Positions 6,683 through 31,940 of a stretch of DNA of 34,438 nt are shown piece after piece. The stretch is from Gammaproteobacteria bacterium 42_54_T18 (GTDB taxonomy: Bacteria; Pseudomonadota; Gammaproteobacteria; Pseudomonadales; Ketobacteraceae). The first letter of the stretch is position 1. Each line of letters begins with the position of its first letter. Under the pieces are notes generated by a model. The model was given only the letters and a program-made list of their open reading frames with translations, made no database searches and was not told the origin of the DNA. Position numbers and translations under genes: made by a program. The stretch lies in contig MAAL01000066.1 in NCBI GenBank assembly GCA_002163245.1, positions 1-34,438 on the forward strand, in the 5' to 3' direction.

Positions 6683-6727
6683 AACAGTAATCACTTCCAA
6701 CAATGAAATACAATAATAAAAGCATCT

Positions 6728-6833: not shown

Positions 6834-7646
6834 TTACACTGCTTTCTGCATCTCTTCGTAATCTACGGGCGACCAATAGCCATTCGTAGAGTGAAGTCGT
6901 TGGCGGTTATAGAACACCTCAATATATTCAAAAATGTCCTGCTGTGTTTCTTTCCTAGTTTGATATTGTTTGTGGTTAACTTGTCCCGTTTTCAATGTGT
7001 GAAAGAAACTTTCTGCAACAGCATTGTCCCAGCAATTTCCCTTACGACTCATGCTTTGAACGATACTATAATCTTTCAACAAGTCGCGATGGCTATGTGA
7101 CGCATACTGAGACCCTCTGTCTGTATGCCAAAGCAGCCCCTTGCCAGGCTTTCTCCGCCAGATCGCTGAGAGTAAGGCATCATTAACTAAATCAGCAGTC
7201 ATCCTACTGCTCATTGACCAGCCAACTACCCGACGGGAAAACAAGTCGATTACCGTTGCTAAATATAACCAACCCTCTGCCGTCCACACGTAAGTTATAT
7301 CACCAACCCACGCATGGTTTGGTTTAGTCTGCGTGAATTGTCGGTCCAGTATATTCGGTGCTACTGGATGATTGTGTTTTGAGTTTGTCGTTGCTTTGAA
7401 CTTCTTTCTTGTTTTACAGCGCAACTCCGCTTGTTTCATCAATCGCCCAATTCTCCTTCGGCTGACTTGGTGCCCCTGCCGATATAGCGCCTTCTTGATT
7501 ACACGGGTTCCGCAGCCATAACGCTGCCCCTCAAAGATGGTTTTGATAAGAGCAGTCAATACATCATTTTCTAGTGCTCTTGGTGTTTTCGGCTTTTTGC
7601 ACCAATCGTAATAAGCTGTTGTTGAAACTTGAAGCATAAAGCACAT
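6834..7646 (-). CDS. IS3-family transposase OrfB (DDE catalytic part)
   Basis: The integrase core is clear: VGDITYV with the first Asp, LWHTDRGSQYASH with the second Asp, and NCWDNAVAESFFHTLK with the Glu, plus the usual HHH_21-like N-terminal region GCGTRVIKKALYRQG. The annotated ATG at 7646 is internal: the frame is open further upstream (KYAWIKAQREFKIQTM) into the end of orfA, as expected for a protein made as an OrfAB fusion by -1 frameshifting. No inactivating change is visible. Confidence 0.9.
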   Translation of the reverse strand: MCFMLQVSTTAYYDWCKKPKTPRALENDVLTALIKTIFEGQRYGCGTRVIKKALYRQGHQVSRRRIGRLMKQAELRCKTRKKFKATTNSKHNHPVAPNILDRQFTQTKPNHAWVGDITYVWTAEGWLYLATVIDLFSRRVVGWSMSSRMTADLVNDALLSAIWRRKPGKGLLWHTDRGSQYASHSHRDLLKDYSIVQSMSRKGNCWDNAVAESFFHTLKTGQVNHKQYQTRKETQQDIFEYIEVFYNRQRLHSTNGYWSPVDYEEMQKAV

Positions 7647-8218: not shown

Positions 8219-8252
8219 AAAGGGTTTTCCAATCAAGCGAGGAAAAACCTTT
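8219..8252 (-). terminator. Hairpin at the end of the efflux operon
   Basis: On the minus strand AAAGGTTTTTCC and GGAAAACCCTTT pair over 11 of 12 positions around a 10-nt loop, overlapping the stop codon of the membrane-fusion gene (8251-8253). There is no clear T run after it, so it is only a probable terminator. The remaining 8011-8218 is non-coding with nothing recognisable. Confidence 0.45.
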
Positions 8253-9480
8253 AAGGGGCTTCCATCTTGGCAAACTCTTGTTCAGGAACGTCATAACTGT
8301 CGGTATAGACAGTTATATAGGCAGACATACCTGCACGTAACACATAAAGGCTTTTATCGTTAATCACGTGGATCCGAACAGGGAAGCGTTTGACAACTTT
8401 TGTAAAGTTCCCTGTTGCGTTTTCAGGCGGTAGTACACTAAATAACGAGCCGCTGCCATTAGAAATGCTGTCTACATAGCCTTTGAATGTAACCCCAGGG
8501 TAAGTATCAATTCTAATATCTACCTCTTGTCCATCACGCATATTCTCAATCTGAGTTTCCTTGAAGTTGGCCTGGATCCAAATTGAATCCTGACATGAAA
8601 CAATACTGGCAATGGGTTGCCCAATTTCCACATAATTACCTGAGGCAACAGTTTTGTTTGTAACCATACCTGCACGACGCGCCTCAATCTTTGTCCGACT
8701 CAAATCCAGCATAGCCAACCGATATTCAGAGCGCGCCACTTCCACTGCATTACGGTACAAAGTTACACTGAACTTTGATGCGCTGATACGATCTTCCAGG
8801 GTAGCTTTGATCAATTCATAATTTCGCTGTGAATTTTGATATGCAATATCATTAATACTGGCCTGGGATTTGAGTGATTTTATATTCTCAAGAAGTGCAT
8901 CTCTATCAGACAAAAAACTTTTATAATTGCGTTTAGATTGAGCCAGATTATCCGTTGACACAATTCTTTTCTCGTGTAGCTTTTGATTTCTGTTGTAGGT
9001 CTCTAAAAAATACTCCAGATTTATCTCCATACTCATCAAACTCTTCTGTGACTCACTAACAAGCTGAGATGATGATTGTAAACGGAGCCGTGCTACATCG
9101 ACTTCGGCTCGCTTATTTTCGATCTCTGAGGTAATTTCAAGTATCAGTATTTTATGATTGTTCGAACCTTGGTTATAACGAGATACCGCTAACTCAAGCT
9201 CTGCTTTCTGTCTTGATACTTCTGAAACCTGATAGTCATTCTCGATTTGGACGATGACCTGTTCACGATCTACATACCCATTTTCAACGAAATCAATCTC
9301 TCTGATTGTACCATTTGTCTCCGAAACAATGTCGGTCACGATACATTCGACAGTGGCATTGTTCGTGGAAACGATATTAATGTTTATCAGGCTCCAAGTG
9401 GAATACACAATGATTACTACAAATGCGAAAATTACTACTTGAGCCCGCAAATCGCGTTTTACTGTAGCTAGTATGCTCAT
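8251..9480 (-). CDS. HlyD/EmrA-type membrane-fusion protein
   Basis: 409 residues. A single N-terminal membrane segment (VVIFAFVVIIVYSTWSLI, about 15-32) anchors it in the inner membrane. Then come the first half of a lipoyl/barrel-sandwich domain (SETNGTIREIDFVENGYVDR), a long alpha-helical hairpin (about 90-245; KAELELAVSRY, AQSKRNYKSF, ATLEDRISASK) and the second lipoyl half (IEARRAGMVTNKTVASGNYV) followed by a beta-barrel (WIQANFKETQIENMRDGQEV). This is the EmrA/HlyD layout: it bridges an inner-membrane exporter to an outer-membrane channel. It follows the DHA2 transporter gene with a 2-bp gap, so the pair forms an EmrAB-like pump. No TolC gene is present here; a genomic TolC would be needed. 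Likely exports the product of the surrounding cluster. Confidence 0.9.
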   Translation of the reverse strand: MSILATVKRDLRAQVVIFAFVVIIVYSTWSLININIVSTNNATVECIVTDIVSETNGTIREIDFVENGYVDREQVIVQIENDYQVSEVSRQKAELELAVSRYNQGSNNHKILILEITSEIENKRAEVDVARLRLQSSSQLVSESQKSLMSMEINLEYFLETYNRNQKLHEKRIVSTDNLAQSKRNYKSFLSDRDALLENIKSLKSQASINDIAYQNSQRNYELIKATLEDRISASKFSVTLYRNAVEVARSEYRLAMLDLSRTKIEARRAGMVTNKTVASGNYVEIGQPIASIVSCQDSIWIQANFKETQIENMRDGQEVDIRIDTYPGVTFKGYVDSISNGSGSLFSVLPPENATGNFTKVVKRFPVRIHVINDKSLYVLRAGMSAYITVYTDSYDVPEQEFAKMEAP

Positions 9481-9482
9481 AT

Positions 9483-11048
9483 CTAAGGTTTACTCTGCTG
9501 CGAAGGTGGCGTTAGCTTAGTTAGAATGCAGACCATAATCATAATGGCAAAAGCTGCGGCGACTAATTGAAACATATACATGAACGAAAGAGACAGAACC
9601 TGCTCCGTAACACGTCCATTCAAAGCTCTAAATGCCTTCTCCATGGATTCATATCGACTAGCTGTTGTAGCTTGAAAGTACTCGACCACACCTGCAAAAC
9701 GCTTATACAGCACGGTGCTAGACAATGTGATGTTATGTCTAAGGAGGCCCCAATTCGCTTTCTCCTGATAGGAAAGGATTGCGGCTGAGATGGTGATACC
9801 GAGTGTTGCTCCGAGCTGATTACAGGTAGATTCAAATGCAGAAGCCGCACCTAGCTTATATTTAGGGACATACATAAGCGCAACAATATTTAGCGGTGTC
9901 AGCACCAACGCAATACCAATACCCAAAATAATTTGAGGTACAACCATATCCCCCCAACCAGTTTCATGAGTAAACAATGACATCATCCACGATGCTATCA
10001 ACCCCATGGCTAAACCAGCTAGGATGACATGCTTAGGCTTAACCCAATTGAGAATTAGCCCAGAAAATGGAAATATTATGGCCATAACAACAGCTCTAGG
10101 AGCCATTGCAGCACCCGCGTAAGTGGGACTGAAATCCAATTGTTCCTGCATATAAATCGGGAGTAGAAACAATGTGCTAGATACTAAAAATCCCATCGAA
10201 AAAATCAGAAATGACGCTGAAGCAAACACCGGATACTTCAGGACCGCAAAATCAACCGCAGGTGACTGAACGGTTAACTCATGGGCAACAAGTAACGCAA
10301 GAGAAAAAATAGATAAAAATATCAGTAATCGGTTAGAAGCGTCATCAAACCAATAGGTTCTATTCCCACGCTCAAGTAGAAGAATTAAAGTAAAGATACC
10401 TATCACCAACAAACCGATACCTACCCAATCTATACTCTTAGCGACACGATTAGAAGTTAGGCTATCTGACTGTAAATAGGTATAGATCAAACCAAGGCTA
10501 ACTAATCCAATAGGAATATTAATGAGAAAAATCAGGCTCCAGTGAAAATTATCGATGATGATTCCACCGAATACTGGCCCCATAGCAGGCCCCGCCATAA
10601 CCGTTGTTCCATATAGTCCCATTATCAAAGGGTGCATGCGTGGTGGAAATATACTTCGAAGAATTACTATTTCTACCGGCAGCATGACTCCTGCCCCTGC
10701 CCCTTGAATGATGCGCGCAAATACAAGTGTATTAAGGTCATCCGCAGAAGCGCACATGAGTGATCCTACAAGGAACGTACATAAAGCGGCCATGAATGCA
10801 TTCTTATTTCCTAGCACCTGGTTTACGTAACCAGATAACAACATCATCACCAGCGAAGAAGTCGCATAGCTCGTCGTTAACCATGAAATCTCAGACACTG
10901 AAGCTGAAAACACACCTCTCAAGTAGGGCCCAGATACAAATAAAACAAAGGTATCCATGGTGGCCATTATCGAACCAGCACAGGCCGCTATTGCAACTAT
11001 CCATCGATACGGATAAATCGATTCTTCTTCACTCTCTAATGGATTCAT
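9483..11048 (-). CDS. DHA2-family (EmrB-type, 14-TM) multidrug exporter
   Basis: 521 residues with about 14 hydrophobic segments. MFS signatures: an N-terminal MATMDTFVLFVSGPYLRGVF helix, the Asp-x-x-G-N/R-like loop after TM2 (VNQVLGNKNAF), and the antiporter motif C in TM5 (GLYGTTVMAGPAMGPVFGG), which marks a drug/proton antiporter. Inner-membrane protein, partner of the downstream membrane-fusion protein. It is transcribed divergently from the aldo/keto reductase operon across the palindrome at 11132-11145. Probable role: export of, and resistance to, the cluster product; the substrate is not known from sequence. Confidence 0.9.
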   Translation of the reverse strand: MNPLESEEESIYPYRWIVAIAACAGSIMATMDTFVLFVSGPYLRGVFSASVSEISWLTTSYATSSLVMMLLSGYVNQVLGNKNAFMAALCTFLVGSLMCASADDLNTLVFARIIQGAGAGVMLPVEIVILRSIFPPRMHPLIMGLYGTTVMAGPAMGPVFGGIIIDNFHWSLIFLINIPIGLVSLGLIYTYLQSDSLTSNRVAKSIDWVGIGLLVIGIFTLILLLERGNRTYWFDDASNRLLIFLSIFSLALLVAHELTVQSPAVDFAVLKYPVFASASFLIFSMGFLVSSTLFLLPIYMQEQLDFSPTYAGAAMAPRAVVMAIIFPFSGLILNWVKPKHVILAGLAMGLIASWMMSLFTHETGWGDMVVPQIILGIGIALVLTPLNIVALMYVPKYKLGAASAFESTCNQLGATLGITISAAILSYQEKANWGLLRHNITLSSTVLYKRFAGVVEYFQATTASRYESMEKAFRALNGRVTEQVLSLSFMYMFQLVAAAFAIMIMVCILTKLTPPSQQSKP

Positions 11049-11178: not shown

Positions 11179-11312
11179 AGCTGAAATTTTATTAGGTCAC
11201 TGTTTCCGTTGCTCAGTTCTCTTCCATATGTTTTGGATGCAAACGATAGCAGATAAACAATGCACGACATGTGATTCATCAACCGTGAATCCCTATGAAC
11301 CCGGAGATTAGT

Positions 11313-12320
11313 ATGAATAAGAAAAGACAGCTTGGAACCAGAGAACTACCACCAATCGGATTGGGCTGCATGGGTATGAGTGAGTTCTACGGAGAAAGTG
11401 ATCACCTAGCTTCTTTGAAAACTCTGCACCAAGCCTATGAATATGGCTATCAGCACTTTGATACTGCCGATATGTACGGACGCGGAAAGAACGAGACGTT
11501 GATCGGAGAGTTTATTCAAGAATTGGGAAGCCAGGAACGGGAAAATCTATTTATTAGCACTAAAGCAGGAATCGTACGCGATCCGAATGACCAGTTCACA
11601 GTCTCGGTTAATAGTTCTTATAACTACATAATGCAGTGCTGCGAGAATTCATTGAATCGATTGGGTGTCGATTACCTCGACCTGTTCTATCTGCACCGAT
11701 TAAGTCCTGACGTACCTATAGAGGAACCTTTACGCGTACTCGATGACCTGATAAAGCAAGGTGTAATAAAAAATGTCGGACTTTGTGAAGTGAATGCTGA
11801 GACGATTCGAGATGCACACCGTATTCTTCCTATCACAGCAGTGCAAAGTGAGTACTCCCTGTGGACTAGAGATGTTGAAGAAAACGTGCTTAATACTTGC
11901 TACGATCTTGATATAGCATTTGTTGCATTTAGTCCATTAGGCCGCGGATTCCTCACTGGCAACATAGATAAAGACACCATTGACAATGGTCTGACGGAAA
12001 ACGATTTTAGAAAACGAATCCCACGTTTTAACGACGAGAACATTATCAAGAATAAGCGGACGCTACAAACGCTAATTGAAATATCAGAGGAGCTTGGAAA
12101 ACCCCCGGCCCAAATAGCGTTAGCCTGGACACTCTCTAAGCAAAATAATATACATGTCATACCTGGTACGCGCCGTATAAAGTATATGAAGCAAAATTTT
12201 GATTCGTTGAACATTGCTCTACCTTCGCATATTACAGCAAAGCTAGATTTCATATTCCTGCCCGAGAACATATTCGGGGAGCGCTACCCTTCGGCTGTTT
12301 CACGTCACTCAGTAGATTAA
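11313..12320 (+). CDS. Aldo/keto reductase
   Basis: About 335 residues. Start chosen at 11313 (MNKKRQLGTRELPP) because GGAG stands 6 bp upstream; the ATG at 11295 lacks a site. The AKR catalytic tetrad is present: Asp and Tyr in FDTADMYG, Lys in ISTKAG, His in FYLHRLSPD. C-terminal NADPH-binding signature IPGTRRIKYMKQN. AKR13-like soluble enzymes reduce aldehydes or ketones with NADPH. It is the first gene of an eight-gene plus-strand operon ending with the carrier protein. In context it may reduce a keto or aldehyde intermediate made by the AfsA-like protein or monooxygenase; substrate unknown. Confidence 0.88.
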   Translation: MNKKRQLGTRELPPIGLGCMGMSEFYGESDHLASLKTLHQAYEYGYQHFDTADMYGRGKNETLIGEFIQELGSQERENLFISTKAGIVRDPNDQFTVSVNSSYNYIMQCCENSLNRLGVDYLDLFYLHRLSPDVPIEEPLRVLDDLIKQGVIKNVGLCEVNAETIRDAHRILPITAVQSEYSLWTRDVEENVLNTCYDLDIAFVAFSPLGRGFLTGNIDKDTIDNGLTENDFRKRIPRFNDENIIKNKRTLQTLIEISEELGKPPAQIALAWTLSKQNNIHVIPGTRRIKYMKQNFDSLNIALPSHITAKLDFIFLPENIFGERYPSAVSRHSVD

Positions 12321-12355
12321 TACAAACTATAACTTTTACCAGGGAATGAAAAGAT

Positions 12356-13132
12356 ATGAAACAGTGTAACTATATTATTGTTGGTGACGACTATCATATG
12401 TTCTCTAACGGAGTGAGCGTAGTAACTGCTACTGAGTTTTATGAAATGTTATCTCAGCCAAACCTGCACCGACTTGAAGGTTCCACTATTCTCCTTGGGC
12501 AGGGTATAAGTACAAATGTGCGGCGCAATCTACTAAAACATCTTGATGCACATAATGTAACGGATATCGTAACCTCAAGGGTACCTGCGGCCTGCGATTT
12601 GACTCATAAAATTACTGAAGACAATGCACTTATATCCAACCCAAGGGTACAGAGCAAACTCCACCATGAGTATGACCTGATCATTAATGACAAAATCGAT
12701 CGCTTGTCTGATCATGTCACCGGCCTTCATATCGGCGCCATGCCCTTGATGGAAGCAGTCAGGCAGGCAACCATCTGCATACTCGAGTTGGCCTACATAA
12801 CGGATAAGCTAAAATTTGGGCTGGTACTTAATTCCTATCGGTCTGATTTTGTCGGTTACTTGTTTCCTGTAGGCGCAACGTTGAATGTCACCATTAATGA
12901 AGTGGACATGAGTTCAAAAACAAAATTCAACGTAGTCGTTAACACGGACGTCATGCAATGCGGCAGTAAGGTAGCTGCTATTGGTCTTGATGTAACACTC
13001 ATCATAAAATCTAAGCTAGATGACATTGAAGCTAAGCGAGCAAAACGCCTACTCAATAAGTTGCTCGTGGAAAATCTTCAGAAAGCCCCACCAAAACAGA
13101 CTGCAACTTTGCCAGGAAATGCAGAAGCATGA
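12356..13132 (+). CDS. AfsA-like hotdog-domain protein
   Basis: 258 residues. The stretch GLHIGAMPLMEAVRQATICI (123-142) followed by FVGYLFPVGATLNVTINEVD matches the A-factor biosynthesis hotdog domain: HxxGMxLxEAxRQ with the conserved Glu133, Arg136 and Gln137. AfsA-type enzymes condense a beta-ketoacyl thioester with dihydroxyacetone phosphate to start gamma-butyrolactone or furan signals (known for Streptomyces AfsA/MmfL). The usual protein has two hotdog repeats; here the first ~110 residues look different (TILLGQGISTNVRRNLLKHL), so it is a variant with one clear hotdog. The gene overlaps the next one by ATGA. An HAD phosphatase and reductase in the same operon fit the same chemistry, but the acyl substrate is unknown. 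Confidence 0.7.
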   Translation: MKQCNYIIVGDDYHMFSNGVSVVTATEFYEMLSQPNLHRLEGSTILLGQGISTNVRRNLLKHLDAHNVTDIVTSRVPAACDLTHKITEDNALISNPRVQSKLHHEYDLIINDKIDRLSDHVTGLHIGAMPLMEAVRQATICILELAYITDKLKFGLVLNSYRSDFVGYLFPVGATLNVTINEVDMSSKTKFNVVVNTDVMQCGSKVAAIGLDVTLIIKSKLDDIEAKRAKRLLNKLLVENLQKAPPKQTATLPGNAEA

Positions 13133-14679
13133 CGAGTCAGCGTAAACCCGTTCTGATCGTCGGAGCTGGCCCTGTTGGTCTTTTGATTGCCAATGGTCTA
13201 GCCGCAAATAATGTTCCGTTTGATATAGTGGACAAAAAAACTGGCCCAAGTAGTGAGAGCAAGGGCCTAGCGATAAACATTAGCTCGCAAAGTGCATTCA
13301 AGCTGTGCGGAGTCAACGATCCAATTGGCAATAGTGGTTGTAAGATTAAGCGACTAGATATCCATTGGAACCGCCACCGGTTCTCATCAATTAACTTTAG
13401 CCATTTATCGACAGCCAGAAACTATTTGATTACCCAGCCACAATGGGTCACAGAGCAAGAGCTGATAAATTCACTAAAGATACACGTGCGTTGGTCCCAT
13501 GAGCTGATTGGCCTTCAACAAGAAAGTAGTGGTGTGGTAGCGCACCTACAGACTGAGGAAGGTGAAGTATCGGAGCAATATGAGTATGTTGTCGGTTGTG
13601 ATGGAAAATATAGTAAAGTTCGCTCCTATATTTCTCGAGATGAGGAATTCACTCAGTACGATATGCACTTTGTTCTGGGCGACTTCCAACTAGAGCAGCA
13701 AGTTCCGAGAGATACTGTCCAATATCAAGTATTTTCTGATGCGTTCTTCATACTGGTACCGATATCTAATGAGCTAACTCGAGTTGTCGTTAAGTATGAC
13801 GGACCTCCCCCGGATCGCCCCGTTCAATCTGCCGATATAGTTGACTACGTTAACAAGTACACAGAGACACCCTTAATAAAACACAACTCAAACTGGATCT
13901 CCCGAGCACCATTCTACAACGCTGTATCCAGCCGAATGCAGAGTGGCCGGCTATTTATCGCGGGCGACGCAGCCCATCTATTTAGTCCTATTGGTGGTAC
14001 TGGAATGAATACGGGATTTCAGGATGCGATCAACCTTCTATGGCGATTAACCTACCTCTATCGTGGCTACGCAAGCAGAGCGTTGCTAAACTTTTATGAA
14101 GAAGAGCGGGTGCCTGCCAACAGATCAGGGATGATCACCGCTGATATTAATACCAAGAATATTGCTGATGTAAGCAAAGCTAAAGAGTTCATCGATGCGA
14201 TTGCTCCGGTAATAAGCAATCGCTCTAATCTAAGGTTTAATCTTCCAGCTGCCATTTCAGGTTACACTTACACGCTTGGTAGCATAGGCGGTCATCCAGA
14301 TCGAGTTGGCCACTATGATTCTGCGTTATGTGACTACATTCTTGAGCATAAACCCAACCAAAAAGAACCTCATCAATTTAAGCATTCCCTACTAATTAAT
14401 GAATCAGATATCAATAGAGAAACTTCCAACAGAGTGGTTGAGCAATGTCTCAGTTACGGTTTCATTGACGTATTGATTATTGAGGCAGACGAGAAATCCA
14501 TCATTAAACAACACTTACAAGATACCTATACGCTGCTCCGTCCAGATGGTGTGATTGAATTAGAATGCTGCCATCTAGATCACAACTTTATTTTTGATTA
14601 TCTAAACGTTAACTATAAAGCGAATATTGATTCAGCTATTGAAGATAAACAATCAGAAAACGGCCTGTTGGCGCTGTAA
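13129..14679 (+). CDS. FAD-dependent aromatic-ring-hydroxylase-type monooxygenase
   Basis: 516 residues of the PheA/TfdB/UbiH flavoprotein fold. N-terminal dinucleotide motif VLIVGAGPVGLL (8-19), the DG-type motif VVGCDGKYSKVRSYI, and the second FAD motif LFIAGDAAHLFSPIGGTGMN. The C-terminal thioredoxin-like domain (about 390-510) is present but divergent, as in phenol-hydroxylase-type enzymes. Uses NADPH and O2 to hydroxylate or to insert oxygen. Starts inside the previous stop (ATGA at 13129) and its TAA overlaps the next ATG, so it is translationally coupled. In this operon it may oxidise the AfsA-derived part; the true substrate cannot be read from sequence. Confidence 0.88.
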   Translation: MTSQRKPVLIVGAGPVGLLIANGLAANNVPFDIVDKKTGPSSESKGLAINISSQSAFKLCGVNDPIGNSGCKIKRLDIHWNRHRFSSINFSHLSTARNYLITQPQWVTEQELINSLKIHVRWSHELIGLQQESSGVVAHLQTEEGEVSEQYEYVVGCDGKYSKVRSYISRDEEFTQYDMHFVLGDFQLEQQVPRDTVQYQVFSDAFFILVPISNELTRVVVKYDGPPPDRPVQSADIVDYVNKYTETPLIKHNSNWISRAPFYNAVSSRMQSGRLFIAGDAAHLFSPIGGTGMNTGFQDAINLLWRLTYLYRGYASRALLNFYEEERVPANRSGMITADINTKNIADVSKAKEFIDAIAPVISNRSNLRFNLPAAISGYTYTLGSIGGHPDRVGHYDSALCDYILEHKPNQKEPHQFKHSLLINESDINRETSNRVVEQCLSYGFIDVLIIEADEKSIIKQHLQDTYTLLRPDGVIELECCHLDHNFIFDYLNVNYKANIDSAIEDKQSENGLLAL

Positions 14680-15509
14680 TGGAAACGACAAACATGCATC
14701 ACTCGAAGATAACGGTTGACGGTTGTAACGCTGCTATTTCTGATACAGGCGGCGATCATCTACCTGTCTTTCTGTTCCATGGAAACTCCTCATCAAGGAA
14801 AGTTTATTCTGAACTAATTTTACGAAATAGCGGTAAGTACCGGTTAATCGCTGTGGATTTTCCGGGGCATGGAGATACGCCTTTACCTGATTGGGCTCTT
14901 GATGGCGTATCGATCAGTAGAATCGGCAGCTTTGCCTACTCCGTCATCAATCATTTTGGGTTTAACGACTTCGTGGTGGTAGGTCAAAGTATAGGTGGCC
15001 ATGCCCTGATAGAAAACGACAACATAATTGAAAGTGCAAGTGGCATCTGTCTACTTTCTTCGCCTCCTATTAACGAGCATACGATTGGCCAAGCCTTTCT
15101 CGAAAGCCCGGTTATGCCTCTACTTTTCCAAGGTGAACTTAACTCTGAAGAACTTGACGCTCTATGCAATCACTTTATATACAGAGATAAACCTCGGCTA
15201 GCCTCTAGGATTTTAACCGATTTAAAACGTACTGATACCCGGTTTCGATCCCTTCTGGGGTTGGGCATGGAGACTGAAGGTATCAAGGATGAACTCTGTG
15301 CTCTAGGTAAATTTCGCCATGATGTATTGATGATCCGCGGCTCACACGATGGCTTTATCGCCTCACAGTACTACGACTCTATTCAGGAGGTGCCTCTTTG
15401 GAAAGATACTTTATTTGAGTTTGATTGTGGACATTGCATCAGCTTAGAAGCGCCTCAACTACTGTGGAATTGCTTGTCTGAATACATAGATAGTGTTTGC
15501 CCCTCTTAA
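14679..15509 (+). CDS. Alpha/beta hydrolase (possible thioesterase or acyltransferase)
   Basis: 276 residues with a full catalytic triad: nucleophile elbow VVVGQSIGGHAL (Ser104), acid IRGSHDGF (Asp224), and FDCGHCISLEAP (His252). The oxyanion strand is FLFHGNSSS. A lid region lies around 130-190. In coronamic acid biosynthesis an alpha/beta-hydrolase-fold acyltransferase (CmaE, a Cys enzyme) moves the amino acid to the free carrier and a thioesterase (CmaT) releases product. The Ser nucleophile here favours a thioesterase or esterase role. Coupled to the monooxygenase by a TAATG overlap. Confidence 0.85.
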   Translation: METTNMHHSKITVDGCNAAISDTGGDHLPVFLFHGNSSSRKVYSELILRNSGKYRLIAVDFPGHGDTPLPDWALDGVSISRIGSFAYSVINHFGFNDFVVVGQSIGGHALIENDNIIESASGICLLSSPPINEHTIGQAFLESPVMPLLFQGELNSEELDALCNHFIYRDKPRLASRILTDLKRTDTRFRSLLGLGMETEGIKDELCALGKFRHDVLMIRGSHDGFIASQYYDSIQEVPLWKDTLFEFDCGHCISLEAPQLLWNCLSEYIDSVCPS

Positions 15510-15545
15510 TAGATACTCAAAAACTACGTTTATAGGAAGACTCTG

Positions 15546-16142
15546 ATGCAAAGAGCAGCATTTTTCGATCTCGATGGAACATTGATTAAAGAGAAAAGTA
15601 TGATTAGCTTTGTTAACTATTTAGCAAACCACCATCCTGGGACGGTTAACGGCCTGAACGAATTCATTGACTCACTTCAGGAACACATGAACCGGGATGT
15701 TATTCGTGTGAATATTAATCGAGAATACTTCAGAATATTTTCAGGTATCACTATAGAAAGTATGCAAAGGCTTGTTTCTTTATGGGCCGAGAAATTCCTT
15801 AGTGGTAAGGACATATTCAACGATCACATCGTCACCAAGCTAAAACAACATAAAGCCAATAACGACAAGATAGTAATCGTATCTGGTTCTTTCGCCATCT
15901 TAGCTAAACAAGCCACTATAACTCTCCCCATTGATGACTACCTATGCACGCAACCCGAAGTGGTATCTGGCCGATTCACGGGTGAAGTAGTAGGTCCTTC
16001 TTGCATAGGCGGGGGAAAGCGAGCCTACATGCTTGAGTACGCTCTTGATGAAGGTATTGATTTGTCACGTTCTAGTGCTTATGGCGACGACCCCACTGAC
16101 CAGCACATGTTGGACACAGTCGCCAATGGAGTTTTCGTATAA
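15546..16142 (+). CDS. HAD-superfamily IB phosphatase (SerB-like)
   Basis: 198 residues. HAD motifs: I FFDLDGT with Asp8 and Asp10, II IVSGSF, III the Lys in GGGKRAY, IV AYGDDPTDQHML. A helical cap lies between motifs I and II (20-90). Such enzymes remove phosphate from small molecules; in AfsA-type pathways an HAD phosphatase (MmfP in methylenomycin furan synthesis) dephosphorylates the condensation product, which suits its place three genes after the AfsA-like protein. The end is abrupt (NGVFV stop), and the bases after the TAA read on in frame as PNDRERVSSHE, resembling the usual VNPDR tail, so about 11 residues may have been lost by a small mutation; all catalytic motifs remain. Confidence 0.85.
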   Translation: MQRAAFFDLDGTLIKEKSMISFVNYLANHHPGTVNGLNEFIDSLQEHMNRDVIRVNINREYFRIFSGITIESMQRLVSLWAEKFLSGKDIFNDHIVTKLKQHKANNDKIVIVSGSFAILAKQATITLPIDDYLCTQPEVVSGRFTGEVVGPSCIGGGKRAYMLEYALDEGIDLSRSSAYGDDPTDQHMLDTVANGVFV

Positions 16143-16305: not shown

Positions 16306-17232
16306 ATGAATATAAATACAGGTGAAAAAAAGTACGCGCTATCTGATAGCGAGTTAGAACAGTTCCACAAACAGGGCTTTATTGGGCCCTTCACATTGGC
16401 CTCTCCCGTTGAAATGGACGAGCTACTAAAAACTCTTCGTAAAAAGCTGTTTAACACTAAGAATGCTATCTACTCCACAAAAAAAGCTGTCAGTGGGGGA
16501 ACCAACTTAGCGAACTATGACCGTCACTTTGACATTAATTTGCTCAGTGAGTTGACTAAGCGACCAGAAATAGTAAATCGCGTAAACTCAATTCTAGGAT
16601 CGGATGTACTCTGCTGGCGTACGGAGTTCTTTCCAAAGTACCCTGGTGACGAAGGTACAGATTGGCACCAAGCCTCAAACTTTGCAAATGTCGCAGGTGA
16701 TAAGAAACCCCAGATTGTTTGGCCAAATGGTTCTGATTTTGGTGGCACTATTACGGTGTGGACAGCAATGACGGACTCCACTATCGAAAACGGTTGCCTT
16801 CAGTTCATACCTGGTACTCATACTCAGATGAACTATGACGAAACGAAGGACATGAACTACGATGCCGATATGATAAACAATGCAGAGAAAGACGGCATTC
16901 GACGCGGATTTTTCGGATACGATTACCGCCAGCTTCAGATTGACCCAGATTGGAAACCCGACGAAAGTAAAGCAGAACCCATGGTGATGAAAGCAGGGCA
17001 ATTCATCATATTCTGGTCAACGCTTATGCACGCATCCTACCCTCATTCTGGTCAATCGGAGAGTATGCGGTTAGGATTTGCAAAACGCTATGTTCCTACA
17101 AGCGTACAGGTATACCCTTTCTCTCGCGAGTTAAAAGAGTTCGGAGGCGAGGCTTCGCTCATCAATCATAAATGTGTTCTGGTTTCTGGACAGGATTCAT
17201 ATAAACACAATGTAGTTGAGGAGCCTGCATGA
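16306..17232 (+). CDS. SyrB2-type Fe(II)/2-oxoglutarate-dependent aliphatic halogenase
   Basis: 308 residues in the phytanoyl-CoA dioxygenase-like fold. The iron site is decisive: [12 protein letters not shown] gives His121-Gln-Ala123, where hydroxylases have His-x-Asp. The Ala leaves a coordination place for chloride, the hallmark of SyrB2 (His116-Ala118-His235). The distal His242 ([10 protein letters not shown]) and the 2-oxoglutarate Arg255 (SMRLGF) are present. Long blocks such as [30 protein letters not shown] and [15 protein letters not shown] look very close to remembered SyrB2/CmaB sequences. These enzymes chlorinate an unactivated methyl of an amino acid held as a carrier-protein thioester. 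The next two genes are a VOC protein and a carrier protein with overlapping start/stop codons, the CmaB-C-D arrangement. Confidence 0.93.
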
Positions 17233-17708
17233 CCGTTCCGATGGTTGACCCAGATGCGGACGATTATCAAGAGCGGATCGCGGATATACTCATAAACAAG
17301 GTCAGTGGTGTAGACCACATCGCGTTTGCCAGCACTGATACGGACTGTACAATTGAGGTGCTCAGTTTATTGGGGTTTGAAACAGCCATTTACAAAAAAA
17401 CTGTTGAACGATTCAACATCCTCGCAACGAAGATGATTAACGTAAAAAGTGATGTCATAGAAATTGTTGAGGTGCTAGATCGCTCCAAGCGAAGCCCGAT
17501 CGACAATTTCATCAAGGACAATCAGAGTCAAGTTTATCACGTGTGCTATAAAGTTGACGACTTTGACAAAGCATATCGAGCGTTGGTCGCGCTGGAAACC
17601 CTGGTGGTTACCAAGCCATTCGAAAGCTATTTGTTTGATGGTTATAGGGTGTCTCATATGCACAATGAATCGATTGGATTATTCGAAATATTCGGGAGGA
17701 TAAGATAA
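17229..17708 (+). CDS. VOC/glyoxalase-fold metalloenzyme, CmaC-like cyclopropane-forming candidate
   Basis: 159 residues with two beta-alpha-beta-beta-beta modules. Metal ligands expected for the vicinal-oxygen-chelate fold are visible: His30 in GVDHIAFAS, a Glu in IEIVEVL (78 or 81), His104 in VYHVCYKV, Glu153 in GLFEIFG. In coronamic acid synthesis a Zn-dependent protein of this fold (CmaC) removes the alpha proton of gamma-chloro-allo-Ile on the carrier and closes the cyclopropane. Here the gene starts inside the halogenase stop (ATGA at 17229) and overlaps the carrier gene (TAATG), so the three are made together. Alternatives are an epimerase or dioxygenase of the same fold. Its N-terminal 25 residues are an extension before the first strand. 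Confidence 0.75.
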
Positions 17709-17950
17709 TGAATAAACTTAGCAAAGATATACAACAGCTATGGTGTGATGTGTTAAAAATAGAGGAATGTAACCCACAAGACAATTTCTTTGATCTAGGC
17801 GGGAACTCACTCCAGGTTATTAAGATCCTCAATGCCTTGGATAAAAAGTTCGGTTTAGAAATCGAGATTGAATCCATATACGATGAGTTGAGTCTAGCTT
17901 CTCTCACTAACGTTGCATTGAATCTTCAGAAGAACTCCACCCTCGTTTAA
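17708..17950 (+). CDS. Free-standing peptidyl carrier protein
   Basis: 80 residues, one thiolation domain. The phosphopantetheine site is DNFFDLGGNSLQVIKI with Ser34. Four-helix carrier layout, acidic surface, and nothing fused. A phosphopantetheinyl transferase must come from elsewhere in the genome. It presents the amino acid to the halogenase and the VOC enzyme, as CmaD does. Last gene of the plus-strand operon; a hairpin follows at 17958-17986. Confidence 0.92.
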   Translation: MNKLSKDIQQLWCDVLKIEECNPQDNFFDLGGNSLQVIKILNALDKKFGLEIEIESIYDELSLASLTNVALNLQKNSTLV

Positions 17951-18473: not shown

Positions 18474-19790
18474 CTAAAAGCTATATGTACTACTGCTTTC
18501 TATTTTCTCTTCAAAGCCCGCACTACGGTCTGCATAGGTCACATGATACCGAAAGGACTGGATGAGTTTATCTATCTTTTCTTCGGAAGTCAGCGGCTCA
18601 GGGTAGACAAACTGAATCGTGTCAATATCGTTAAATTTATACAGGTGTACGACCACCATGTACGTCCCACCGATCCGGTTTACTGTAGTGAAATAATCAA
18701 GTAGCTCAAAGTGGCAGTAGTCACGAGGAATAGATATATCCCCTATGTTGGTGACCCCTACTCCCCCTGTGAATTCTTCCGACTCTAAGCTAGTTGCCAT
18801 TGTTCGGTAGATATCCTGTGAAGAGTAGTGGGTTTTAGTGAAACACCTTTTCAGTGAATCCTTTACCAGTCCAATTTGGTAAGCTTTTGCGATCTCCGTA
18901 ACACTTTTGTTCCGGGCCACCTGCCGCATACTCGAGATACCCATATAACATCCCAGACTGGAGGTCTCGATACTTTCCATATCTTCATAAATGCGTAAGG
19001 ATACTGCTGATTTGAATTCCATCGGTTCTTCATACAATCGATTATCGCTGATCGCTTTAATCAGCGCTGCACTTAAAACCGAGTTATATTGAAGGTTGTC
19101 TTCTTTCGCCCGGGTTTCAATACACTCTCTTAACGTCCGATCTATCAACATCGATTTCCAGGCGGTTCTTCTATTTTTTATCGGAACTGCCACTTCATAA
19201 GGTAATGGAGCAACTGGTTCATGGGGCAAAATTGATGACTTCTCACTGAGAAAATCATTGATAGAGGGTGGAAATTTACGTATGGCGACTTCCTCGGTAC
19301 CGCCTTGTTGAAAATTATCCAGGTAATGAAGAAAGCGTGTCCCTACAACAGATAAACCATGCCCATCCAGAATGGCATGGTGAAATGTCATCACTATCTT
19401 GGTCGTGGATTCCCCGTTAACAGTAAGCACTCTAATTTGCCAAAGCGAGCTTTCTTGGGCTAATGGATCGTCGACTGCAGTTCGAATGCAGCGCTCCTCT
19501 TCATGACTATCCGATACCATCTCGCTTACCAAGGGTATATCCCTACAGTTAGCTCCCGAGAAGAACCAAGCCTTCCCCTCGTATTCCCGAATACAGGCAC
19601 CTAGAATTGGAAACTCCGTGAGTAGTTTCTGAGACGCGTCCAAATAAGCGTCGAAAGGCAATATACAGGAAGTGTGCAGCACCTGGGTCGCTTGCGATGT
19701 ACCACGCATTAAGCTATGCATGCAAGACATAATAATCTCGACTCCGGCCAAGGGACGGATCGGGGCGAGCAGTTCAGTATCGTTCATCAT
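18474..19790 (-). CDS. Stand-alone condensation-type (PapA-like) acyltransferase
   Basis: 438 residues. The catalytic motif TFHHAILDGHG is the HHxxxDG of condensation domains (His138, Asp142). The C-terminal half carries GGVGVTNIGD, like the 'vTNlG' of PapA5/alcohol-acyltransferase-type members, in place of the DFGWG of NRPS C domains. The protein is not fused to a carrier or adenylation domain. It could join the carrier-bound amino acid to an acceptor (amine or alcohol) and release it. Encoded divergently from the adenylation gene across the palindrome at 19862-19875, so both can be switched together. Confidence 0.83.
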   Translation of the reverse strand: MMNDTELLAPIRPLAGVEIIMSCMHSLMRGTSQATQVLHTSCILPFDAYLDASQKLLTEFPILGACIREYEGKAWFFSGANCRDIPLVSEMVSDSHEEERCIRTAVDDPLAQESSLWQIRVLTVNGESTTKIVMTFHHAILDGHGLSVVGTRFLHYLDNFQQGGTEEVAIRKFPPSINDFLSEKSSILPHEPVAPLPYEVAVPIKNRRTAWKSMLIDRTLRECIETRAKEDNLQYNSVLSAALIKAISDNRLYEEPMEFKSAVSLRIYEDMESIETSSLGCYMGISSMRQVARNKSVTEIAKAYQIGLVKDSLKRCFTKTHYSSQDIYRTMATSLESEEFTGGVGVTNIGDISIPRDYCHFELLDYFTTVNRIGGTYMVVVHLYKFNDIDTIQFVYPEPLTSEEKIDKLIQSFRYHVTYADRSAGFEEKIESSSTYSF

Positions 19791-20003: not shown

Positions 20004-22058
20004 TTGGATTCAATCGATACCAAAACACTCACCTGTTTACAAAATAAAGGCTTCGCAGACGAAAGGCAAAAAGCCACTTATTACATCAGCGTACTAGCCT
20101 GCCTTTTCTATCGTTACCAGCCTGCTCGACACGCAAATATTGTCTTCCATTGGTACCAAAACGGCACTACTTCCCCTGTAGAATATATGCTGGATATAGA
20201 CTCCGATCTCCGGCTGGATACCTGTATAGATTCCATCAACCACTTACCTGGCAAGTCCCCTGATGCATCTAATCGTATACAGTTTGTAGTCTTCATGGGA
20301 AGCACAAACGGTGGTTTTGAACCCGACTTGCACTCCAGCGGATGTGAGCTCCATATTCATGACAACGGCGTGCAACTTCGATCTAAAAACAATTCCCCTT
20401 ATCGACCTTTACACCTTCATGTCGAGCGCATTATTCAGCTACTCAACGTAAATAACATGACGACTTTCTCAGAGCTTGAGATACTATCGCAGGCTGAACA
20501 GACAGCCCTGGTATTAGAAAGCGGATCAGATCATGACACCGGACTCTCACGAGGTACCATCCACGAGTTTGTCGAAACTATCGCATCCAAGCTACCCGGC
20601 AACCAGGCGGTTCTAAGTGATCAGGTTCATCTGACATATTCAGAGTTAAATCGGTCAGCCAATCAGCTGGCAAGAGTCATTCTGGAAAAAGTCGGCTCCG
20701 CCCCCCAACCTATCGCGATCGATCTAAGGCGAGGACCTCACATGATCATCGCTTTGTTAGCGATCCTTAAAGCGGGTCACCATTATTTACCCATTGATCA
20801 AAATACCCCTCTAGAAAGAATCCAATTCATGCTTGAAGACTGTGAATGCCGTTTACGTCTTTGTGATTGTGAGCGTGAACTCCCACCTAGCGTCGAACCA
20901 TTGTATTGGGATCACTGCCTTACACTTATGGATTCTGTCTCCGACAAAAATCTTGGGGTAAATGCCTACAGCGACACAATTGCATACATCAATTACACAT
21001 CAGGCTCTACGGGAGTACCCAAAGGGGTTGAGGTATACCATCGTGGAGTTGTCAGACTCAATCACAACCCCAACTTTATCGAGTACGACGAAAACACCCG
21101 CATGCTTCACATTTCCAATGTTGGGTTTGACGCCGCGACATTTGAGATATGGGGCGCCCTCATGAATGCCGCGCCTTTGGTAGTATACTCAGGCGCTCGC
21201 CCCACCGTAAAAGGATTAATGCATTGTATCGAACAATACGGAGCCAACACGACGTTCCTTACTTCGTCTCTGTTTGACTTCTTAATCGATGAGGCCCCTC
21301 GCGTGTTCGCTCAGCTCAGCTGTGTGATAGTTGGCGGCGACAAGATATCAATCAAGCACGCAATGAAAGTGAGATCACAATTCCCTCATTTGAAGTTGAC
21401 CCAAGCCTACGGCCCTACTGAGTGCACAACATTCGCAACCACTTATTCGATCGATACTGTTGACAAGACTACCGAATTTATTCCAATCGGTAAGCCCATT
21501 AATGAAACCCAAGTATACCTGCTGGATGAAAATGGAAATCTGGTTCCTAGCGGTGTTCCTGGTGAGATGTACATAGGAGGTATGGGCGTCGCCAAGGGCT
21601 ATCGAAACCAATTGGAAAAAAACCAAATAGCTTTCGTATCCATGCAAGGCCCGTTGACCAATGTAGGGACACTTTACCGAACTGGGGATATAGCGTACCG
21701 GCTGCCCACTGGTGATCTCGTCTTCGTTGGTCGACGCGATGACCAAATCAAAATTCGGGGCTTCCGAGTAGAACTCGGAGAAATCACCAACACTCTATCC
21801 TACCACCCTAAAATTGCTCAGTTGTACACGGTTCTTCATGGTGAAAGTTATTCTGATAAAAAGATCGTCGTTTATTTTACACCCGAGAGAAACTGCACCC
21901 TTACTGCCCAGGAAATAAAGAAATATGCAAAAGAGAAGTTGCCGATCTATATGGTGCCCAGTCAGGTCATTCATGTGAGTCAGTTTCCGCTGACTGGTAA
22001 CGGAAAAATAGACAAAGCCCGTATAGCAGATTATCGAGTTGAATCAGCGCTCAGTTAG
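20004..22058 (+). CDS. Stand-alone NRPS adenylation enzyme, aliphatic amino acid code
   Basis: 684 residues; TTG start with AGGAG about 9 bp upstream. Core motifs: A3 YTSGSTGVPKG (331-341), A4 FDAATFEIWG (375-384), A5 AYGPTECTTF (468-477), A7 YRTGDIAYRL (558-567), A8 RDDQIKIRGFRVELGEI, A10 GNGKIDKARI with the catalytic Lys. The specificity residues aligned by hand to GrsA read D-A-F-F-I-G-A-T-F-K, near published Val (DAFWIGGTFK) and Ile-type codes. Residues 1-160 look like the damaged C-lobe of a condensation domain (VLACLFYRYQ). There is no carrier domain, so it must charge the free carrier at 17708-17950 in trans, as CmaA-type chemistry would need. Ends tail to tail with the racemase gene with 3 bp overlap. 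Confidence 0.92.
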   Translation: MDSIDTKTLTCLQNKGFADERQKATYYISVLACLFYRYQPARHANIVFHWYQNGTTSPVEYMLDIDSDLRLDTCIDSINHLPGKSPDASNRIQFVVFMGSTNGGFEPDLHSSGCELHIHDNGVQLRSKNNSPYRPLHLHVERIIQLLNVNNMTTFSELEILSQAEQTALVLESGSDHDTGLSRGTIHEFVETIASKLPGNQAVLSDQVHLTYSELNRSANQLARVILEKVGSAPQPIAIDLRRGPHMIIALLAILKAGHHYLPIDQNTPLERIQFMLEDCECRLRLCDCERELPPSVEPLYWDHCLTLMDSVSDKNLGVNAYSDTIAYINYTSGSTGVPKGVEVYHRGVVRLNHNPNFIEYDENTRMLHISNVGFDAATFEIWGALMNAAPLVVYSGARPTVKGLMHCIEQYGANTTFLTSSLFDFLIDEAPRVFAQLSCVIVGGDKISIKHAMKVRSQFPHLKLTQAYGPTECTTFATTYSIDTVDKTTEFIPIGKPINETQVYLLDENGNLVPSGVPGEMYIGGMGVAKGYRNQLEKNQIAFVSMQGPLTNVGTLYRTGDIAYRLPTGDLVFVGRRDDQIKIRGFRVELGEITNTLSYHPKIAQLYTVLHGESYSDKKIVVYFTPERNCTLTAQEIKKYAKEKLPIYMVPSQVIHVSQFPLTGNGKIDKARIADYRVESALS

Positions 22059-23185
22059 CCTGATACCACCACCCGACGAACTCTTTCGCTGATTCCACAG
22101 AGCAAATCATAGGAAATAGTATTACAGTGTATCGCCACCTCGTCCACACTTAGACCTGGCCCCCATAGGGTGACCGTATCTCCAACACTGGCATGGAACC
22201 CATCTGTCAATTGAACGGTGATTGTATCCATAGACACCCGCCCCAATAGCTTCGCTCTCTGACCATTAATCAAGACCGGTGTTCCATTTCGAGCACTTCG
22301 AGGGTAGCCATCACCGTAGCCTACAGCAATGGAAGCAATCCACCCTGGCTGGTCGAGAATATTTTCATCGCCATAACCAATTGGCTGCTCTTCCAAAACA
22401 TAGCGTACCGAAGAAACCTTGCTAGTAAAGTGCATCACGGGGCGTAGACACTCGACGGAGTGGACTAACTGTTCTGATTTATCGTCTATAAAGCTGGTGC
22501 TGCCATATAATGATATCCCCGGCCTTATCCAGTCAGCGTGGTATTGATGCTGTGTAAAAATCAAAGCAGAGTTCGAGATTGTACTATACCCAACGTCTTC
22601 TGCGCAGTCTTTAACTGTGAACTCCCACTTCGAAAATTGTTTCGTATTGTGTACGTTGGCAGGGAAATCGGCGCAACTATAATGCGTAATAAGATTTATC
22701 TTATCCTCAATACCCATGACCCGCAGGGCTCGCACCACATGAGGAATATCACTATCCCGAAACCCTAAGCGATGCATACCCGTGTCGACCTTTATCCAAA
22801 TCTGTCGGCCACAAACAATATTCGTCTCCGATTGTTCTGTTAAGAAAGAACGCAACCATTCTATCTGAATCCAGTTATGAATCGTAAAGAAGAAACCACC
22901 CTTCAAGATTACTTCCAGCTCTTCCTTAGATGAATAACCACCAAGAATTAAAATGGGTTTACCGAATACTACTGTGCGTATCGCTGTCGCCTCTTCCACT
23001 CTTGCTACAGCAAAACCATCGGTATGACCAACTAGAGCCATTGCAATGTCTGTTAGACCATGTCCATATGCATTTGCTTTGATAACGCTGAAAACCTTAC
23101 TATCTGGCGCGAGTTTTGAAATATAACTATAGTTATGCTGAAGAGCAGACATATCAATGAATGCTACTGCCGTTGACATGCTCAA
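22055..23185 (-). CDS. Alanine racemase
   Basis: 376 residues, fold type III PLP enzyme. All active-site residues of the family appear: PLP Lys36 in SVIKANAYGHG, His168 in THYSCAD, Asn205 in SNSAL, Arg221 in RPGISLYG, the opposite-face Tyr271 in PIGYGDEN, Tyr290 in VGYGDGYPR, and Met-Asp in GRVSMD. It therefore should interconvert L- and D-alanine, or a related amino acid, in the cytoplasm. It lies inside the biosynthetic cluster behind a small ribbon-helix-helix gene (45-bp gap), not in a cell-wall or dad operon. Possible roles: target duplication against an alanine-mimic product, supply of D-Ala for the neighbouring ligase, or epimerisation of a pathway amino acid. Confidence 0.92.
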   Translation of the reverse strand: MSMSTAVAFIDMSALQHNYSYISKLAPDSKVFSVIKANAYGHGLTDIAMALVGHTDGFAVARVEEATAIRTVVFGKPILILGGYSSKEELEVILKGGFFFTIHNWIQIEWLRSFLTEQSETNIVCGRQIWIKVDTGMHRLGFRDSDIPHVVRALRVMGIEDKINLITHYSCADFPANVHNTKQFSKWEFTVKDCAEDVGYSTISNSALIFTQHQYHADWIRPGISLYGSTSFIDDKSEQLVHSVECLRPVMHFTSKVSSVRYVLEEQPIGYGDENILDQPGWIASIAVGYGDGYPRSARNGTPVLINGQRAKLLGRVSMDTITVQLTDGFHASVGDTVTLWGPGLSVDEVAIHCNTISYDLLCGISERVRRVVVSG

Positions 23186-24782: not shown

Positions 24783-25376
24783 TTACTGATTCAGACATCT
24801 CAACAACTCGCCATTCTGTTTCCTCAAATTTGCAATTGTTGTTTGTGCTTTTTCATAATCAATTTCGAGCTGTTTGTATTTGGCTATCAGATATTTCTGC
24901 TCATTAAGAACCTCAGACGAAAGAGCCTCCTGGAAGTATCCTACTAACCTTTCGTTTTTTATCTCACTTAGCTGTCGTTCATAAATTGATTTATCCCGCG
25001 CCAGATCAGATTTGGATGGTTTTTGTCCTTTTTTAGGGTGCTCAGAAGTATTCTTCCATAGCTGATCAAGCTTGATGTTTTCTTGTTCTATATATTTTAA
25101 TAGCAGTGATTGACGATCCTCTCGTAAGTTCGATTTATCTACCCCTGCCAACTCAGCAATCTGGCTATTCACAAGCTGTCGATCCTTGACACCCAAAACT
25201 TTCTTAGCCGATGACTTAATTAGCACTTCTTTCTCCAGAACCATATTCTGTACTGCTTCATAGAGCTTTAGCGTAACAGGAGGGCCGTCTAGAACCCAAC
25301 TGGGAACAATAGGTATTTCATCTGGTTTTTTGAATTTGTCGAGAGAAAACTGATCCATATCATGCTTCCATTTCAT
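24783..25376 (-). CDS. Small helical accessory protein of the recombinase module
   Basis: 197 residues, mostly helical and charged, with a C-terminal coiled coil (YLIAKYKQLEIDYEKAQTTI ... LRKQNGELLRCL). The middle contains NSQIAELAGVDKSNLREDRQ, helix-turn-helix-like. The gene overlaps the end of the upstream recombinase by 17 bp (a start at 25358, MDQFSL, would avoid this). Small coiled-coil DNA-binding proteins accompany multi-recombinase elements (TnpC of Tn554 is the classic case), so it probably helps the recombinases at the element ends. No catalytic residues seen. Confidence 0.6.
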   Translation of the reverse strand: MKWKHDMDQFSLDKFKKPDEIPIVPSWVLDGPPVTLKLYEAVQNMVLEKEVLIKSSAKKVLGVKDRQLVNSQIAELAGVDKSNLREDRQSLLLKYIEQENIKLDQLWKNTSEHPKKGQKPSKSDLARDKSIYERQLSEIKNERLVGYFQEALSSEVLNEQKYLIAKYKQLEIDYEKAQTTIANLRKQNGELLRCLNQ

Positions 25377-27312: not shown

Positions 27313-27321
27313 TCCAATATC

Positions 27322-31663: not shown

Positions 31664-31689
31664 AGTGTTGTTTTGTCCTTTGCTTATCA

Positions 31690-31940
31690 AATCCGTAAAT
31701 GCGGTATTTTCTTATGATGCCCTGTGTTTGTCTACGCATATAACGAAGATGATTGATCAATTCATTACGGGTATGCGGTCGAAAGTCACAAAAATAGAAC
31801 TCTGGTGACATTTTCTCAGGTATTCGTCGTAGCACTTGAATTTGCTCCTCCATTGAGCGGCGTATCTCATCTAGAGCATGATTAACCACGTCCCTAGTAT
31901 CCTGTTCCAATAATTTGGGGCTGCTAAAGTACTCGATCAC
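31690..31940 (-). CDS. Small protein of unknown function upstream of the antiporter
   Basis: An open frame starting GTG at 31940 gives MIEYFSSPKLLEQDTRDVVN followed by helical, charged sequence with IRRSMEEQIQVLRRIPEKM. The frame continues to 31593, but the last 30 residues overlap the antiporter start and look like a shadow of it, so only about 80 residues are credible. No family recognised; it may be a small regulator or a fragment. Confidence 0.35.

Follow-up and report, generated by a model that had tools for sequence, protein, structure and literature searches.

A halogenase, a VOC-fold protein and a free carrier protein in overlapping genes: a putative cyclopropyl amino acid cassette of mixed affinities in a Ketobacteraceae bacterium

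The overlapping genes and the lineage of the halogenase

The window—the whole stretch of 34,438 nucleotides analysed here, contig MAAL01000066.1 of Gammaproteobacteria bacterium 42_54_T18 (Ketobacteraceae)—carries three overlapping genes on its forward strand, encoding a halogenase, a protein of the vicinal oxygen chelate (VOC) fold, and a free-standing carrier protein. Together they are considered as a putative cassette for the production of a cyclopropyl amino acid. Open reading frame (ORF) calling in the window returned the following:

16306–17232, + strand: SyrB2-type non-haem Fe(II)/2-oxoglutarate halogenase, 308 amino acids (TIGR01762, SyrB2 structure match, WHQAS motif, tree)
17229–17708, + strand: VOC-fold protein, proposed CmaC-like cyclase, 159 amino acids (PF13669, sister of CmaC in trees, CmaC profile, H30/E78/H104/E153)
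17708–17950, + strand: free-standing carrier protein, proposed to tether the amino acid while it is chlorinated and cyclised, 80 amino acids (PF00550, LGGNS motif)

The halogenase and VOC genes share four bases in an ATGA junction (17229–17232), and the VOC and carrier genes share one base in a TAATG junction (17706–17710). Full-length members of three families thus sit in one overlapping unit, and the trio is therefore not regarded as a product of chance. A first-pass annotation of this DNA had proposed the same trio with the same overlaps, and the called ORFs confirm it to the base.

The halogenase scores 433.9 bits against the NCBIfam model for chlorinating enzymes (TIGR01762; cut-off 226.3). 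Its top sequence match in the PDB is SyrB2 (2fct; E 2.6e-126), followed by CytC3, and the SyrB2-type identity suggested earlier is thereby upheld. In halogenases of this type, an alanine or glycine replaces the carboxylate of the metal-binding facial triad (HxA/G); the WHQAS motif of the window protein supplies the corresponding His-X-Ala. We propose that the enzyme chlorinates the gamma carbon of a carrier-bound amino acid.

Within the SyrB2-type halogenases, the window protein falls into a clade (support 100/99) with those of three plasmid-borne loci, L033 from Burkholderia, L034 from Streptomyces and L035 from Mycobacterium (comparison loci carry L numbers throughout). The tree comprised 16 rows, with L042, L108, and L109 left out and L063 trimmed. 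Forcing the window halogenase into the CmaB clade, that of the coronamic acid halogenase, costs 30 log-likelihood units and is rejected (approximately unbiased test, p-AU 0.0005). Beside the halogenase, each of the three plasmid loci encodes a free adenylation (A) domain with the code DAFFLGVTFK (3/3) and an acyl-CoA dehydrogenase, the latter annotated in L034 and L035 and found by Pfam in L033. A small carrier gene adjoins the halogenase in L034 and L035 by annotation, with a weak match alone in L033 (E 1e-4). This gene content is presumably that of the KtzA–KtzD allocoronamic acid set, and the loci are called Ktz-like below on the strength of gene content, with no Kutzneria sequence in the comparison. 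An excerpt of PMC12615548 describes cryptic chlorination of thioester-bound isoleucine by KtzD before the cyclopropane forms. Searches with three queries from L033–L035 did not find a Ktz-like acyl-CoA dehydrogenase in the window, the best piece being 26 residues long (E 0.67).

The VOC protein and its nearest relatives

The second protein of the cassette matches Pfam Glyoxalase_4 (PF13669) with 37.4 bits against a cut-off of 27. The residues H30, E78, H104, and E153 do not vary in a four-row alignment that sets the window protein against CmaC, the CmaC homologue of Azospirillum, and a VOC protein of Rahnella; the first-pass annotation had likewise counted four candidate ligands. From general VOC anatomy, we take these residues to be metal ligands. 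A four-ligand metal site is accordingly proposed for the window protein; a Zn-dependent cyclisation with loss of chloride characterises CmaC-type cyclopropanases.

Phylogeny places the window protein as the sister of CmaC, with support of 96/87 in a 41-row tree and of 97/91 in a 36-row tree under a mixture model. The larger tree left out the window copies L001, L004, L053, and L066 as well as L050, L071, L075, L077, and L093; the smaller one additionally lacked L049 (whose row is short, at 115 residues), L051, L087, L089, and L090. When the protein was scored against four profiles, the CmaC profile gave 71.7 bits, the glyoxalase-like one 67.6, the Rahnella-type one 55.5, and the epimerase-like one 49.5; these groups were labelled by the analyst, and the epimerase-like rows were not scanned against NCBIfam. 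Identification as an ordinary methylmalonyl-CoA epimerase was rejected, as the epimerase-like score is the lowest of the four and the protein lies outside the epimerase-like set in both trees. The expected clustering with CmaC, apart from epimerase-like and glyoxalase-like rows, was thus obtained; separation from the Rahnella-type proteins was not, since a clade with them is not rejected (p-AU 0.19). KtzA, which the first-pass annotation had named as a source of VOC homologues for comparison, is reportedly the flavoprotein in the title of Neumann and Walsh (2008).

Two further positions were compared. H143 is present in the window protein, in all five CmaC-type rows, and in all five Rahnella-type rows, and in none of the 30 others, while an acidic residue at column 60 (E60 in the window protein) is shared with 5/5 CmaC-type and 0/5 Rahnella-type rows.

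A plasmid search with the window VOC protein as its only query, and hence unseeded by CmaC, returned 20 records: nine annotated as cmaC, ten from Rahnella, and one from Azospirillum. The cmaC records held the best E-values (2e-13). The protein found no match in phages. A VOC neighbour was present in five CmaB-type halogenase loci (L032 and L042–L045) and in the window; four of the five were retrieved through the VOC protein, so this count is not a frequency. No VOC match was found in 13 other halogenase loci (L033–L039, L062–L065, L108, and L109) when these were searched with the window protein (E 1e-3 or 1e-5) and with CmaC sequences (E 1e-2 or 1e-3). The VOC proteins of L040, L041, L047, and L048, from Rahnella and Pseudomonas, have a common SH[ML] motif, and no halogenase match was found near them. 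The annotation of the two Rahnella loci among these four lists a carrier together with AMP-binding/D-alanine ligase-type proteins, acyl-CoA dehydrogenases, and 3-oxoacyl-acyl carrier protein synthases.

Substrate, proposed pathway and alternatives

The carrier protein is an ordinary peptidyl carrier protein, with 59.5 bits for PP-binding (PF00550; cut-off 20.8) and the LGGNS motif in place. A candidate to load it is encoded downstream:

20004–22058, + strand: free-standing adenylation protein, TTG start, code DAFFIGATFK, no carrier domain found

This protein scores 363.5 bits for TIGR01733 (cut-off 317.4), and its Pfam domains are AMP-binding and AMP-binding_C only; its 185 N-terminal residues (20004–20558) matched no Pfam family at E 0.01. 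The code was read by alignment to other A domains, 22 in one alignment and 19 in a second, with positions that we set on the motifs of the PheA structure. We take DAF-type codes such as DAFFIGATFK and DAFFLGVTFK to denote valine or isoleucine. All 11 DAF-type codes, that of the window included, form a single A-domain clade (99/98), within which the window domain, on a long branch, groups with the Ktz-like A domains at 90/87, below the 95/80 mark of the tool. Because of this code and this clade, we infer a substrate of valine or isoleucine type; it need not be L-allo-isoleucine, the substrate of the coronamic acid route named in the first-pass annotation. CmaA-type codes, DAFLYGGVFK or DAFLFGGVFK, were read in all four scored A domains of that kind (L032, L043, L044, and L045). 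Threonine-type codes (DFWNIGMVHK and near forms) occur in L036, L037, L063, and the readable part of L039 and are unlike that of the window. Two other substrates were rejected: threonine, by the code DAFFIGATFK, and D-alanine, by a DltA match of 236.9 bits against a cut-off of 559.85 and by a code that we take to be of another kind. L036 lies on a Salmonella enterica plasmid typed as conjugative and combines a SyrB2-like halogenase with a threonine-type A domain, a carrier, and a hydrolase.

The cassette can now be set against known systems. With the coronamic acid cassette (CmaA–CmaE), it shares a SyrB2-type halogenase gene directly followed by a VOC gene (as in L042), an amino acid that would be tethered to a carrier, and the four proposed VOC ligands. 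It differs in that its halogenase lies outside the CmaB clade, in that its carrier gene directly follows the VOC gene, and in that it is served by a free A domain with the code DAFFIGATFK, whereas the coronamic acid cassette has the adenylation–thiolation protein CmaA with DAFLYGGVFK. The window also encodes a hydrolase with a serine motif, whereas CmaE-type aminoacyltransferases use cysteine; searching the cma-type loci L042–L045 at E 1e-3 turned up no counterpart of the window hydrolase, although distant kinship to the CmaE type could escape this threshold. The locus is thus not a copy of the Cma cassette, because its halogenase groups with the Ktz-like sets and the CmaB grouping is rejected, and the proposal that it reproduces that cassette does not hold. 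With the Ktz cassette (KtzA–KtzD), it shares the halogenase clade of the three Ktz-like loci, the free carrier, and a free A domain of similar code, but a VOC protein stands where the Ktz cassette has a flavoprotein of the acyl-CoA dehydrogenase type. The chlorothreonine module of syringomycin (SyrB2/SyrB1) has a halogenase of the same family with the WHQA motif; in contrast, the window has a non-threonine code and a VOC partner.

Because the halogenase is Ktz-like while the VOC protein groups with CmaC and no Ktz-like dehydrogenase was found in the window, the locus looks like a mixed cassette: its halogenase, carrier, and free A domain are of Ktz type, and the place of the dehydrogenase-type protein is taken by a CmaC-like VOC protein. 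Such a pairing of a Ktz-type chlorination module with a CmaC-like cyclase would be a new combination, outside the Cma and Ktz systems as defined here.

From these genes, we infer a pathway as follows, from its substrate to its release step. The A protein would activate a branched aliphatic amino acid—valine or an isoleucine isomer—and load it onto the free carrier, where the halogenase would chlorinate the gamma carbon. The metal site of the VOC protein would then remove the alpha proton and stabilise the thioester enolate, and the carbanion at the alpha carbon would displace chloride to close the cyclopropane ring. Valine would give 2-methyl-1-aminocyclopropane-1-carboxylic acid, and isoleucine would give an isomer of coronamic acid. 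The hydrolase, or a PapA5-type transferase also encoded in the window, could finally free the amino acid or join it to another piece. For CmaB and CmaC themselves, an excerpt of PMC5490422 gives gamma-halogenation followed by intramolecular gamma-elimination. On balance, production of a cyclopropyl amino acid through cryptic chlorination is probable, if well short of certain; as first suggested, the genes are best read as chlorinating a single tethered amino acid, here an aliphatic one, and then closing the ring.

Several observations weigh against this reading. The window VOC protein is only 28%–33% identical to CmaC-type proteins (about 29% to CmaC) and forms a long branch in the tree; its CmaC score exceeds the glyoxalase-like one by only 4 bits, the latter profile being built from three rows that include a short one. 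CmaC served as one of the seeds for VOC sampling (alignment A1), a choice that biases the sample towards CmaC-like rows. In addition, 4/30 other VOC rows have an acid at column 60, and E60 pairs, in an alignment read by eye, with a glutamate of methylmalonyl-CoA epimerase, so that its use in epimerisation is equally possible. L034, a Ktz-like locus, has an annotated 'VOC family protein' around 11 kb from its halogenase, although this protein matches neither the window VOC protein nor CmaC, and VOC genes are common in general. Lastly, the gene for the A protein lies 2 kb from the cassette, behind a gene of opposite orientation.

Chief among the alternatives is that the chlorinated amino acid is itself a stable end product and that the VOC protein has some other role, such as epimerising the alpha carbon as methylmalonyl-CoA epimerase does. 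SyrB2, which among solved proteins is closest to the halogenase, yields stable chlorothreonine, and a D-configured product would suit targets in D-alanine metabolism. Furthermore, the better of the two NCBIfam VOC matches is to methylmalonyl-CoA epimerase (TIGR03081), albeit at 36.1 bits, far under the cut-off of 114.95. However, the profile and tree results given above separate the VOC protein from the epimerase-like set, and both halogenase and A domain group with dehydrogenase-partnered sets and not with threonine sets; we regard a stable chloride as rather improbable.

Somewhat less probable again is cryptic chlorination in which the VOC protein forms a different bond: it could turn a halohydrin into an epoxide, eliminate to an alkene, or close a heterocycle. 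Largimycin provides the precedent: the portion of PMC9396626 available describes a non-haem iron halogenase that cryptically chlorinates threonine en route to a proposed epoxide, in a cluster that also encodes LrgB, an uncharacterised protein with a VOC domain. A halohydrin route requires threonine, however, and the window code is DAFFIGATFK and not of the DFWNIGMVHK type; moreover, of the characterised VOC proteins in the tree, CmaC is the closest.

The weakest of the three, that the VOC protein is functionally of Rahnella type—serving carrier pathways without halogenases—and adjoins the halogenase incidentally, draws on the unrejected grouping, the common H143, and the free A-domain-type ligases, carrier, and acyl-CoA dehydrogenases around two Rahnella genes, but is improbable given a Rahnella-type score of 55.5 bits against 71.7 for CmaC, the missing column-60 acid in all five Rahnella-type rows, and the overlap of the VOC gene with both the halogenase gene (four bases) and the carrier gene (one base).

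Neighbouring genes, occurrence and possible product

The genes around the cassette and the adenylation gene include the following:

5735–6703, − strand: extra D-Ala-D-Ala-ligase-like (Ddl-like) protein, candidate for self-protection or amide ligation (PF07478 and PF01820 over cut-off)
8251–11048, − strand: EmrA/EmrB-type efflux pair (8251–9480 and 9483–11048; TIGR00711 307.5 bits, cut-off 230.2; TIGR00998 186.5 bits, below 390.8)
11295–12320, + strand: aldo-keto reductase, AfsA set (PF00248, 252.4 bits; 46% identity to the reductase of the Ruegeria pomeroyi locus)
12356–13132, + strand: AfsA-like hotdog protein (PF03756, 18.5 bits, E 0.0022, below cut-off 24)
13129–14679, + strand: flavin monooxygenase (PF01494, 183.2 bits)
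14679–15509, + strand: alpha/beta hydrolase, candidate thioesterase (PF12697, 50.3 bits; serine motif GQSIGG)
15546–16142, + strand: HAD-IB phosphatase, AfsA set (TIGR01490, 105.7 bits, cut-off 98.3; 31% identity to the HAD protein of the R. pomeroyi AfsA locus)
18474–19790, − strand: PapA5/condensation-type acyltransferase, candidate joining or release enzyme (HHAILDG motif)
22055–23185, − strand: extra alanine racemase, candidate for self-protection (TIGR00492, 300.9 bits, cut-off 168)

Scores of the PapA5-type protein are under the cut-offs (NF006787, 44.8 versus 396 bits; PF00668, 20 versus 30.6 bits), as are those of the Ddl-like protein for the two NCBIfam Ddl models (234.2 versus 243 and 195.3 versus 245.65 bits). 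The efflux genes are divergent from the operon, and an IS3-family transposase gene (6834–7646; NF033516, 351.6 bits) lies between them and the extra Ddl gene.

The alanine racemase (Alr) and the Ddl-like protein, whose genes flank the cluster, are extras, because the genome holds housekeeping copies elsewhere: the window racemase is 38% identical to a copy on contig C16, between radA and dnaB, and the Ddl-like protein is 32% identical to DdlB, encoded between ftsQ and murC. At E 1e-20, two Ddl matches were found in this genome alone of 15 from the family (11 had one and three had none), while two Alr copies occur in three of the 15. Alignment of the Ddl-like protein reveals a phenylalanine in place of the omega-loop tyrosine, a missing HSLVP loop, and an altered acceptor loop. 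In Ddl, the tyrosine-to-phenylalanine change is reportedly linked to a broader acceptor range, so that a biosynthetic role as an amide ligase is as likely as a protective one. As for precedent, an excerpt of PMC6804068 states that D-cycloserine inhibits both alanine racemase and Ddl and that the Ddl of the producer cluster is proposed to confer self-resistance. In having an additional Ddl-type gene next to biosynthetic genes, the window resembles this arrangement, whereas the extra alanine racemase is a point of difference. A scan of 20 window proteins recognised none of the cycloserine biosynthesis genes that would be expected.

Upstream of the cassette, the AfsA-like, HAD-IB, and aldo-keto reductase proteins are homologous to those of the AfsA locus of R. 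pomeroyi DSS-3 (28%, 31%, and 46% identity, respectively); the flavin monooxygenase and the hydrolase are encoded in the same gene run (11295–16142). The AfsA-like match to the R. pomeroyi protein has an E-value of 6e-21, and the latter scores 50.5 bits, over the cut-off of 24. According to the accessible part of PMC7426152, the R. pomeroyi AfsA (putative butyrolactone) locus is required for diffusible killing. Unlike the window, that locus gave no match to the VOC protein or the A domain at E 1, and its halogenase matches did not go beyond E 0.07. An AfsA-like match was found in three of 369 genomes, this one included; a HAD gene adjoins it in genome G728, and none was found within 18 kb in G724. 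The AfsA/HAD/reductase set may yield either a signal or a portion of the final product.

Towards the far end of the window, a group of large genes (24783–31690) includes a tyrosine recombinase (PF00589; 29532–30713). Beside it is a Na+/H+ antiporter match with partial coverage of the model (30647–31690), and since a C-terminal antiporter piece occurs on contig C123 (25778–26197), an element may have split the antiporter gene. A weak haem-oxygenase-like protein is encoded at 32001–32918 (PF14518, 21.2 bits, below the cut-off of 28.9).

In relatives, the halogenase was matched at E 1e-30 in its own genome alone (1/96), and at E 1e-50, it was found in five of 390 genomes of the order, its own included; the other four had no VOC match in the 20-kb stretches examined. 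VOC matches were present in 4/57 genomes including its own, the other three being weak (E 1.6e-4 or worse). A sequence scan of genome contigs gave ten loci, three of them with a halogenase match.

The extra Alr and Ddl, the efflux pair, and the homologues of an AfsA-type killing locus together prompt the tentative suggestion that the cluster makes an antibiotic, conceivably a D-alanine antimetabolite, and its product may target the very enzymes duplicated in the window. A wider proposal is likewise speculative and, taken whole, is unlikely: that a Ktz-type module has swapped partners by taking on a CmaC-type metal-dependent cyclase, that its amino acid is made under the control of, or joined to, the product of the AfsA/HAD/reductase set, and that the cluster thus represents a new antibiotic pathway, with its own resistance genes revealing the target. 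A Ktz-type halogenase with a CmaC-like VOC protein was not described in the titles and abstract openings of the matches listed, drawn mostly from literature outside subscription, which does not in itself establish novelty.

To our knowledge, a ring closer of the VOC type is known only from coronamic acid. If the proposed assignment is correct, a VOC cyclase working with a halogenase from the flavoprotein-partnered lineage would show that both halves of such a system are exchangeable, and a second, distant VOC sequence would help to locate the catalytic residues.

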